A stretch of 42,537 bases of DNA, from assembly GCA_020057185.1 (NCBI GenBank), contig JAGVGK010000031.1:1-42537 (forward strand), written 5' to 3'. The stretch comes from Minisyncoccota bacterium (GTDB lineage: Bacteria > Patescibacteriota > Minisyncoccia > Phycocordibacterales > JACOZG01). Under the pieces are notes generated by a model. It was not told the origin of the DNA. It saw only the letters and a list, made by a program, of their open reading frames with translations, and did no database searches. Both the position numbers and the translations under genes were made by a program. Shown here piece after piece: positions 1-8,910 of this stretch (the stretch's first letter is position 1; the number at the start of each line of letters is the position of its first letter).

Positions 1-186
1 CGTCACGCGCTCGGTGACACCGAGCGCTCGCGCCACAGCCTGCGTGAAAGTGGTTTTCCCGGCGCCGAGATCACCCTGCAAAGCAACCAGTGTTGCTTGT
101 TTTGTTTGTTTTCTGTCAGCTAATTCCGCAAGAATTTTAGCAGCCAAATCAGCTGTTTCCGTCAAATTGTGACTAATAATTTGCAT
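1..186 (-). CDS. tsaE: TsaE (tRNA t6A biosynthesis ATPase), N-terminal part, truncated by window edge
   Basis: Reverse translation from ATG at 186: MQIISHNLTETADLAAKILAELADRKQTKQATLVALQGDLGAGKTTFTQAVARALGVTERVT; Walker A GDLGAGKTTF and TsaE-type flanks. Confidence 0.9.
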   Translation of the reverse strand, partial: MQIISHNLTETADLAAKILAELADRKQTKQATLVALQGDLGAGKTTFTQAVARALGVTERVT

Positions 187-584: not shown

Positions 585-2300
585 GTGGTTGTGCTAGGAA
601 TAGGGATGATGTCAGTTATTTTTAATGAAGACAAGCAAAGTAGACGACTCGAAGAACTCCGCAGTCAGGAGGCCGAAGAGCTCACGGCGCTTCTCGCCCC
701 TCGTCATCACCTACCTTATGTTGATCTCTCTAAATTTCCCATCAATACCGACGCCTTGCGTTTAATTCCGGAGCCCGAAGCGCGAATGGGAGCGATTGCC
801 GGCTTCCGCGTCAACGGCAAAACGCTTGATGTCATTATTCACTCGCCAGAAAGTCCCGCCACGCAAAAGATATTAGCCGAACTTAAAGATAAAGGTTTCG
901 CCGTCACCCCCTATTTGGGTTCCGTTGCCAGTCTCGAGCGCGCCTTTTCCCGTTACAGTGAAATTTCTCGATCCACCCGCGCCACCGCCGGGGTAATTGA
1001 TATCTCGAGCGAAGAAATTGAAGCTTTTCTTAAAGAAGTTGTCGATCTAGAGGAGGTGAAACGACGATTTGCGAAAGAGAGCGAGGTGGCGCTAGCGGAA
1101 GGGAGCATCACTGATATTTTAGAAATTATTTTAGCCGGCGGGATTCTTGTCCAAGCGTCAGATATTCATCTCGAGCCAGAAGCCGACGCGGTACGACTGC
1201 GTTACCGACTCGACGGTGTGCTTCATGATATTACTTTTTTCAATTCCAAACTTTATCGGCAAATTCTCTCGCGAGTAAAATTAATTTCCGGTCTCAAACT
1301 CAATGTGCTAAAGACCGCTCAAGATGGGCGCTTCAGTATCAAACTTTCAAAACAAGAAATCGAGGTGCGCACTTCGGTCTTGCCCGGTGCCTACGGCGAA
1401 TCAATTGTCTTAAGAATCTTAAACCCGGAATCAATTCTGGTTGAACTGGAAGCGTTGGGCGTTGAGCCAACCCTCTACCAAATACTCCAACAAGAAATCG
1501 CTAAACCGAATGGGCTGATCTTACTCACTGGACCAACCGGCTCGGGCAAGACGACAACTCTCTACGCCATCTTGCGTCAAATTAATTCCACGGAAACAAA
1601 AATTATTACGATCGAAGACCCAATCGAATATCATCTCGAGGGTATTAATCAAACTCAAGTGAATGTTGGGGAAGATTACACCTTCCTCACCGGCTTGCGA
1701 TCCGCCCTTCGGCAAGATCCGGATGTCATCATGGTTGGTGAAATTCGTGACACGGAAACCGCTAAAATTGCTATCAACGCTTCGCTCACCGGCCATCTCG
1801 TCCTCTCCACCTTACACACCAATAATGCCGCGGGCACGATCCCGCGGCTAATCGACCTCGAAGCCAATCCGAAGGTGTTGGATGCGGCGCTCAATATCGC
1901 CATGGCTCAACGGCTCGTCCGCAAACTCTGTCCCGTTTGCAAAAAACCGGTAGTCATCACTCCAACCGACACCCAACTCCTTAATCAAGTTTTGGCCGGG
2001 ATTAAGAAAAAGCGCGCTGGCTTCACGGCCCCCCCGCTCGCCCTGTGGGAAGCGGTCGGCTGTCACGAGTGTCACGGCACCGGTTATCGTGGGCGAATTG
2101 GCGTCTTCGAAGCCATTCTCTTGGACAAAAATGTCGCCGAACTCTTGATCAAGAACCCCAACGAACGAGAGATCAAGCGCGTGGCGCTCCAACAAGGGAT
2201 TCTCGATCTGCGAGAAGACGGCGTGACCAAGGCCATGGCGGGGATCACTTCACTCGGTGAACTTAACCGCGTGATTGATATGGGGGAAGAGTTTCTTTGA
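585..2300 (+). CDS. pilB: Type IV pilus assembly / type II secretion ATPase (PilB/GspE family); true start possibly 606 or 609
   Basis: GPTGSGKTTTLYAIL Walker A, EDPIEY, RQDPDVIMVGEIRD, TGHLVLSTLHTN, CPVC...CHEC zinc motif. Confidence 0.93.
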   Translation: MVVLGIGMMSVIFNEDKQSRRLEELRSQEAEELTALLAPRHHLPYVDLSKFPINTDALRLIPEPEARMGAIAGFRVNGKTLDVIIHSPESPATQKILAELKDKGFAVTPYLGSVASLERAFSRYSEISRSTRATAGVIDISSEEIEAFLKEVVDLEEVKRRFAKESEVALAEGSITDILEIILAGGILVQASDIHLEPEADAVRLRYRLDGVLHDITFFNSKLYRQILSRVKLISGLKLNVLKTAQDGRFSIKLSKQEIEVRTSVLPGAYGESIVLRILNPESILVELEALGVEPTLYQILQQEIAKPNGLILLTGPTGSGKTTTLYAILRQINSTETKIITIEDPIEYHLEGINQTQVNVGEDYTFLTGLRSALRQDPDVIMVGEIRDTETAKIAINASLTGHLVLSTLHTNNAAGTIPRLIDLEANPKVLDAALNIAMAQRLVRKLCPVCKKPVVITPTDTQLLNQVLAGIKKKRAGFTAPPLALWEAVGCHECHGTGYRGRIGVFEAILLDKNVAELLIKNPNEREIKRVALQQGILDLREDGVTKAMAGITSLGELNRVIDMGEEFL

Positions 2301-2301
2301 C

Positions 2302-2472
2302 ATTCGAGCTTATAAACCTCTCAGCAATCCTTGAGACATGACATCTCAAGTTAGGTAACCGTTAGAGGATGGTCCCAGAGTTTCGCCCGAAAGCGAAGTC
2401 CAGAGCGTCCTTGAACTGAAACCCGTTTAAACCAGTGAAAGTCTAGTTGCTGAGAGGTTTATGACCTCGAAT
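2302..2472. ncRNA. Putative structured RNA or MITE-like element with a 26-bp closing helix
   Basis: 2302-2327 pairs with 2447-2472 (16 bp perfect core 2312-2327/2447-2462, one C.C mismatch, one G.U), enclosing hairpins 2330-2336/2344-2350, 2366-2371/2406-2411 and 2382-2386/2393-2397. No ORF. Confidence 0.55.
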
Positions 2473-2509: not shown

Positions 2510-3523
2510 ATGTCAATAGACCTAGAGAAAACCCCTAAAACCGACTGGTTGCTTGATAGTGCCCTCCGCCCCAACGTTTGGGACGAATATGTCGGCCAAA
2601 CGAGCATAAAAGAGAACTTGAAGATATTACTACAAGCTGCTAGGGAACGGCAACACCCCCCCGAGCACCTCCTTTTCTATGGTCCACCCGGCCTGGGCAA
2701 GACCACCCTCGCCCATTTGATTGCTAAAGAGATAAACGCTCAACTCAAAGTGACTTCCGGACCAGCGATTGAAAAGGTTGGCGACCTCGCCTCGATTCTC
2801 ACCAACCTCTCGCCGAGCGATATTCTTTTTATTGACGAGGTCCATAGATTAAATAAGTTAATTGAAGAAGTTCTCTACCCGGCCATGGAATCCGGCACGC
2901 TCAATATCGTCATCGGCAAAGGCCCGGGCGCGCGCGTCATCCAACTTGATCTTCCTCCCTTCACTCTGATCGCGGCGACCACGCGCATTGCCCTGCTCTC
3001 TTCTCCTCTCCGCTCGCGCTTCTCGGGTGGGACCTTCCGACTTGATTTCTACACCACCGCCGAGATTGAAAAAATAATTAAACGCTCGGCGAAAATTCTG
3101 GAAGTGGCGCTTGACGGACAAGCCGCGGCGGCGATCGCGGAGCGGAGCCGCTTCACCCCCCGAATTGCCAATCAACTTCTGAAACGATGCCGCGATTTCG
3201 CCCAAGTCCACAAACAACCACTGGGGGTGGAAACCGTGGGGAAAACTTTGACCATGCTTGGGATTGACGAACTCGGTCTCTCGTCCGCCGACCGACGAAT
3301 TCTCGAAATTCTCATCGAAAAGTTTGCCGGCGGACCGGTCGGTCTCGGCACCATCGCCGCGGCGGCGTCCGAGGAAGAAGCGACGATCGCCGATGTCCAC
3401 GAGCCCTACTTACTCCAGCTCGGCTTCCTCGAACGCACCCCCCGCGGTCGCCTCGCCACCCGCAAGGCGTATGACCATCTCGGCAAAACCCTCCCCGCCG
3501 ACCGACAAGATAAATTGCTTTAA
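2510..3523 (+). CDS. ruvB: Holliday junction branch migration helicase RuvB
   Basis: LRPNVWDEYVGQ, GPPGLGKTTLAHLIA, FIDEVHRLN, AATTR, C-terminal winged helix (GLGTIAAAASEEEATIADVHEPYLLQLGFLERTPRGR). Confidence 0.97.
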   Translation: MSIDLEKTPKTDWLLDSALRPNVWDEYVGQTSIKENLKILLQAARERQHPPEHLLFYGPPGLGKTTLAHLIAKEINAQLKVTSGPAIEKVGDLASILTNLSPSDILFIDEVHRLNKLIEEVLYPAMESGTLNIVIGKGPGARVIQLDLPPFTLIAATTRIALLSSPLRSRFSGGTFRLDFYTTAEIEKIIKRSAKILEVALDGQAAAAIAERSRFTPRIANQLLKRCRDFAQVHKQPLGVETVGKTLTMLGIDELGLSSADRRILEILIEKFAGGPVGLGTIAAAASEEEATIADVHEPYLLQLGFLERTPRGRLATRKAYDHLGKTLPADRQDKLL

Positions 3524-8379: not shown

Positions 8380-8409
8380 TTGACAAGTGGTAGCGTTTTA
8401 TGCTAAGCT
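8380..8409 (+). promoter_or_regulatory. Sigma70-type promoter with extended -10
   Basis: TTGACA (8380-8385), 18-nt spacer, TGC-TAAGCT (-10 at 8404-8409). Confidence 0.5.
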
Positions 8410-8484: not shown

Positions 8485-8910
8485 ATGTCAAAGTTTCAAA
8501 AGTCCGGATTGGTTACCGCTCTGATTTGTCTCGTGCTGGTCATCGTGGCCGGAGAGATGCTTCAGGGGACACCGACACCGAGAGTTTGGAAGGGTGAGGA
8601 AGCCGTGGTGGTCGGTGGTCCAGGTTACGCGCGTGGCGCTTACCTAGTTTCAGTTGTTCCGATTGAACCAGGAAAGAAGCCTGCTCCACTACCGTGGTAC
8701 ATCAAAGCCGCTTGTTTCGAAGAGTGGAGCCTGAAAAAAGGAGACACGGTCCGTCTGTACACGAAAAAATCAGGGACAATCTGGGCGGAGCCGACAAAGG
8801 TCGAGACGAAGTTAAATAAAGCCGACATCACGAGTTGGTACGCATGGTCACGGATGGGCCTCAGTTCTCAGTATGTCGCCACGCACGATGTCGAACACAT
8901 TGTACGTTAG
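8485..8910 (+). CDS. Hypothetical membrane-anchored/secreted protein (141 aa)
   Basis: N-terminal hydrophobic segment SGLVTALICLVLVIVAG, RBS aaaggag, own promoter and terminator. Confidence 0.75.
   Translation: MSKFQKSGLVTALICLVLVIVAGEMLQGTPTPRVWKGEEAVVVGGPGYARGAYLVSVVPIEPGKKPAPLPWYIKAACFEEWSLKKGDTVRLYTKKSGTIWAEPTKVETKLNKADITSWYAWSRMGLSSQYVATHDVEHIVR

Follow-up and report, generated by a model that had tools for sequence, protein, structure and literature searches.

What is encoded by the long inverted repeat located between pilB and ruvB in contig JAGVGK010000031.1 of a Minisyncoccota bacterium, which was analyzed at its full length of 42,537 nt and is called "the window" in the following? 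An earlier reading of the letters without database searches, the sequence-only reading, had placed at positions 2302 to 2472 either an undescribed structured non-coding RNA (ncRNA), a 5' element of ruvB, or an element similar to a miniature inverted-repeat transposable element (MITE), and implied the plus strand. The data collected here indicate an RNA gene of about 180 nt at positions 2302 to 2481 of the minus strand, predicted from model scores, promoter, and homologues. That the gene is real, resides on the minus strand, and is absent from Rfam can be regarded, all three together, as nearly certain. None of 4,227 Rfam families matched the RNA of the window or its homologues at gathering score (21 sources), ARAGORN found no transfer-messenger RNA (tmRNA) in the window, and no earlier description of the RNA was found in the open-access literature. 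This is in agreement with the earlier statement that no core of RNase P, tmRNA, signal recognition particle (SRP) RNA, or 6S RNA is visible, and the proposal of an undescribed structured ncRNA was upheld by the many homologues with compensatory changes in addition to the missing Rfam match.

Promoter and strand of the RNA gene

A promoter of the pattern TTGACN-13..15-TGNTA was located upstream of the RNA, on its strand, in 59 of the 60 loci that were fetched after model building, and the same scan gave 0 matches on the opposite strand or at the opposite end of these loci. Among the 60, L204 repeats a sequence that had been used for training; without it, 58 of 59 distinct held-out loci have the promoter, and the only locus lacking the promoter, L190, is truncated by the end of its contig. 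In the window, the promoter occupies positions 2488 to 2516 on the minus strand, with the −35 box TTGACA at 2516-2511, a spacer of 17 nt, the −10 box TAACAT at 2493-2488, and an extended TGC. The complete pattern matched twice in the 42.5-kb window compared to 0.02 expected matches. Across the loci, the distance between the −10 box and the start of the model ranged from 12 to 189 nt with a median of 51 nt, and of 116 loci, 66 had T-runs behind the RNA, compared to 28 with such runs on the opposite strand. The 5' end of the RNA at about 2481 was deduced from the position of the promoter, and the 3' end should be at about 2302 or slightly past it.

The pairing pattern of the homologues points to the same strand. 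When read on the minus strand, the aligned pairs contained 468 G.U compared to 112 A.C cells, and a tandem U.G/G.U was almost always retained. The covariance model R1 scored the window with 115.2 bits on the minus and 44.9 bits on the plus strand, and the minus-strand score was the higher one in all cases examined, although this difference is partly built in because the model was derived from the minus strand. Since the promoter, the G.U pattern, the model scores, and the joint inversion of RNA and promoter in one locus (L138, see below) agree, the RNA was assigned to the minus strand, and the plus strand implied before had to be given up. These sequence features support a free-standing gene on the minus strand, expressed from an extended sigma-70-type promoter that is close to the consensus. 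With its own promoter, a covarying structure, and no coding potential, the element has the properties of a free-standing structured ncRNA. A peptide-coding gene was considered and rejected: the longest open reading frames (ORFs) did not exceed those of shuffled sequences, the lengths of the homologues were distributed over all three remainders modulo 3, and no ORF was conserved.

Two further observations concern the promoter sequence. The other match to the pattern in the window is at 8380-8409 on the plus strand, upstream of a 141-aa ORF at 8485-8910. The −10 region at 2488-2497 is near-palindromic (ATGTTAGCAT) and could double as a plus-strand promoter of ruvB, in a bidirectional arrangement.

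Structure and covariation of the RNA

The arms 2302-2327 and 2447-2472 pair on the plus strand over 26 positions, interrupted by a single C.C mismatch and including one U.G pair, exactly as described by the sequence-only reading. The inner stems it listed at 2330-2350, 2366-2371/2406-2411, and 2382-2397 could all be confirmed; its list lacked another hairpin, at 2428-2445. The fold had a free energy of −66.8 kcal/mol on the plus strand (z −8.3) and of −68.9 kcal/mol on the minus strand (z −7.4), in both cases equaled by 0 shuffles. On the minus strand, the RNA forms a compact four-way junction of the helices P1 to P4, with short linkers and nearly shut by P2 and P4. The closing helix P1 has its 5' strand at 2446 to 2472 and its 3' strand at 2302 to 2328, both defined by fold and covariation. 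It is followed by the P2 hairpin (2428 to 2445), the long arm P3 (2353 to 2424), and the P4 hairpin (2330 to 2350); the model spans 2463-2311 of this RNA.

Compensatory changes were found in two alignments of different character. In a MAFFT alignment of 19 sequences, 42 of 57 pairs had changed on both sides, and any of the covariation measures was reached by 0 of 500 shuffles. In the largely held-out alignment A8, 50 of 57 pairs showed changes on both sides, and 85.8% of its cells were paired, compared to 36-54% after sliding of the partners. A8 was fitted to the model and is thus biased toward the structure, while the MAFFT alignment is free of this bias; A8 also contains a row on the wrong strand (L213) and a small number of sequences from the class level. 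The search for homologues with compensatory changes that had been suggested to examine the stems strongly supported their conservation.

The four helices differ in the way they are conserved. P2 and P4 covary along their whole lengths, in 5 of 5 and 7 of 7 model pairs, respectively. The inner part of P1 is conserved in sequence over much of its extent, with the core CUCUAAGCAA, which would be unusual if pairing alone were important. P3 contains a block of AGGAC facing UAUCCU, with a mostly conserved C opposite an A; in the window, AGGAC at 2411-2407 faces AUCCU at 2370-2366, both conserved, and an adjacent 8-bp helix with a tandem G.U follows at 2406-2399/2380-2373. The length of the RNA varied between 124 and 223 nt among the homologues, with variable loop lengths. 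A search for pseudoknots by mutual information gave no consistent additional helix, only extensions of P3 and P4.

Distribution and genomic setting

The source genome (783 kb, 98.8% complete) contains one copy of the RNA element, and all 3 genomes of the source family carry it. R1 detected the RNA in 165 of 197 genomes of the source order, almost always as a single copy. R2, a model built on 57 sequences, found it in 60 of 144 genomes sampled across the class (Patescibacteria, or candidate phyla radiation, in Paceibacteria-type lineages) and in 19 of 382 genomes of a phylum sample, all of them in the class except one, G326, in which the match is on a possibly misbinned contig of 2.7 kb. The large scans were strictly filtered, so that these presence counts are lower bounds. 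A search around ruvB in named genomes, from the records of which the lineage names were taken, revealed the same inverted-repeat element upstream of this gene in Kaiser-, Zambryski-, Nomura-, Yonath-, Ryan-, and other Patescibacteria. The ruvB loci of Moranbacteria-type lineages, Sungbacteria, and Harrisonbacteria had weak upstream matches or a P1-like helix plus the same promoter, and about 45 ruvB loci from other phyla gave 0 matches in the model search at E up to 1.

Wherever both genes were present in the fetched loci, the order was pilB, RNA, ruvB, with the RNA opposing both. In the window, pilB, which encodes a type II/IV secretion ATPase (585 to 2300, plus strand), is convergent with the RNA, and ruvB (2510 to 3523, plus strand) is divergent from it, with the start codon of ruvB being overlapped by the −35 box of the RNA promoter. 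The distance between RNA and ruvB ranged from 34 to 270 nt. The sole exception to this orientation is L138 (2001-2206), in which RNA and promoter have been flipped together between pilB and ruvB. This inversion and the extra copies in L127, L128, and L125 indicate that the RNA is a gene of its own and not a leader.

The loci with extra copies have some peculiarities. L127 and L128 (2001-2159), which belong to one genus, possess a diverged second copy outside of the pilB-ruvB region that has no clear promoter and has retained most of the structure. L125 (2001-2363) contains a tandem pair with nearly identical cores and a promoter only in front of the first. In L138, the tip of P3 carries an insertion of about 60 nt.

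Possible function of the RNA and competing explanations

Widely conserved, free-standing, and strongly promoted RNAs such as 6S RNA, SRP RNA, and OLE tend toward core functions. Patescibacteria form an abundant and largely uncultured group that has been stripped of many core functions, SRP among them. Because most examined genomes of the order, and many of the class, have kept the RNA along with its strong promoter, it probably performs a core cellular job. The gene for the ~180-nt structured RNA is inherited across the class as a single-copy locus with a promoter of its own, and the strength of this promoter suggests that the RNA may be abundant. Proteins may bind at the P1 core CUCUAAGCAA and, in P3, at the internal loop AGGAC/UAUCCU with its tandem G.U. 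The RNA might then act in trans as the RNA component of a housekeeping ribonucleoprotein (RNP), broadly like 6S or SRP RNA. Judged from the sequence comparisons, this is the most economical reading and, in our opinion, somewhat favored to be true. Some points weigh against it. The trans role, the abundance, and the protein partners have been inferred from sequence features. About 16% of the genomes of the order had no match, albeit R2 recovered at least one of these (G062). One P1 pair of the window is U.G when read on the plus but A.C on the minus strand. In addition, that the RNA stays so strictly next to ruvB and pilB could signal a local role in cis.

That the RNA has survived genome reduction together with its promoter and its fold points to a process invisible to protein-based annotation. 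The alignments permit construction of a covariance model, so that the RNA can be annotated immediately in public genomes. It is claimed here as a new RNA family without relatives among the known families, the mechanism of which could still prove familiar. OLE and raiA, orphan structured bacterial RNAs discovered by comparative genomics, are likewise deeply conserved, strongly structured, and free-standing, whereas the RNA described here matches no Rfam family and differs in lineage and architecture. A more far-reaching possibility, which we put forward tentatively and consider to have the odds somewhat against it, is a near-universal core RNA of the whole class. If true, it would belong to an RNP machine that is not known from other bacteria, or be a completely rebuilt replacement of a classic one, for instance of the 6S type. 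The lineage in question has also lost SRP.

Could the RNA nevertheless be a disguised SRP RNA of its lineage? It shares with the bacterial SRP RNAs (RF00169, RF01854) the character of a housekeeping-type structured RNA, and these two models gave no match in 41 genomes of the order, leaving the place of an SRP RNA vacant. However, the M domain of Ffh (PF02978) was found in 0 of 31 genomes of the order compared to 14 of 14 positive controls, and the domain IV core, which the RNA lacks, had no credible match in the source genome. With Ffh, domain IV core, and SRP RNA model matches all absent, an SRP RNA is effectively refuted, and we assign it practically no probability. Loss of ffh and ffs has been published for Parcubacteria (Nelson and Stegen 2015, PMC4508563). 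The SRP loss observed here spans a whole order, beyond that published case (PMC4508563). An equally negligible chance is left to the MITE-like mobile element, with the long helix as its terminal inverted repeats: such repeats are indeed at the ends of the element, and second copies occur, but these are rare. The source genome and nearly all carriers have a single copy, not multiple dispersed ones, this copy keeps its locus from family to family, and the inner stems covary, so that copy number and locus refute this proposal. Counting the copies, as the sequence-only reading had advised, thus confirmed one conserved copy beside ruvB and eliminated the MITE, but the cis element expected in this case was not borne out, due to the strand. 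A plus-strand cis element in the ruvB mRNA would benefit from its position upstream of ruvB and from the one additional standard pair of P1 on this strand, but the conserved promoter, the G.U pattern, the model scores, and the inversion favor the minus strand, and we regard such an element as very improbable. A leader or riboswitch of ruvB was rejected for the same reason of strand, since the RNA diverges from ruvB and converges with pilB.

A local regulator on the minus strand deserves more attention, although it is still unlikely. In this case, the RNA or its transcription would control either ruvB, from which it diverges, or pilB, with which it converges, in accordance with the class-wide maintenance of the gene order and the overlap of the −35 box with the ruvB start codon in the window. 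On the other hand, the distance to ruvB is variable, the RNA is inverted in L138, extra copies exist away from ruvB in L127 and L128, and a covarying four-way junction would be unnecessary for transcriptional interference alone. Less probable again, but not to be dismissed as readily as the SRP RNA, is a strongly diverged or analogous 6S RNA that binds RNA polymerase by mimicry of an open promoter, with P1 as the closing and P3 as the apical stem. No 6S RNA was found in the source genome or in the 7 class members of the phylum sample, while 6S-like matches appeared in 15 of 117 sampled genomes, all of other classes. Both RNAs also share the size class, a long closing stem, a strong promoter of their own, a single copy, and wide conservation. 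Nevertheless, the Rfam 6S model (RF00013) had no match in 21 sources, and the 6S-like matches elsewhere in the phylum are in a different locus with neither ruvB nor pilB nearby. The 6S-like RNAs of other classes possess a large 5' bubble and a ACCCACCU-hairpin on the 3' side, but the RNA described here lacks a large single-stranded bubble in the center, between its closing and apical stems; P2 and P4, one hairpin on either side, form a tight four-way junction instead, and P1 is conserved in sequence.

In the course of this comparison, 6S RNAs were recognizable in the loci L159 to L168 from other classes of Patescibacteria. They are mostly sub-threshold, so that the Rfam 6S cut-off misses most of them, and they carry the conserved ACCCACCU-hairpin on their 3' side.
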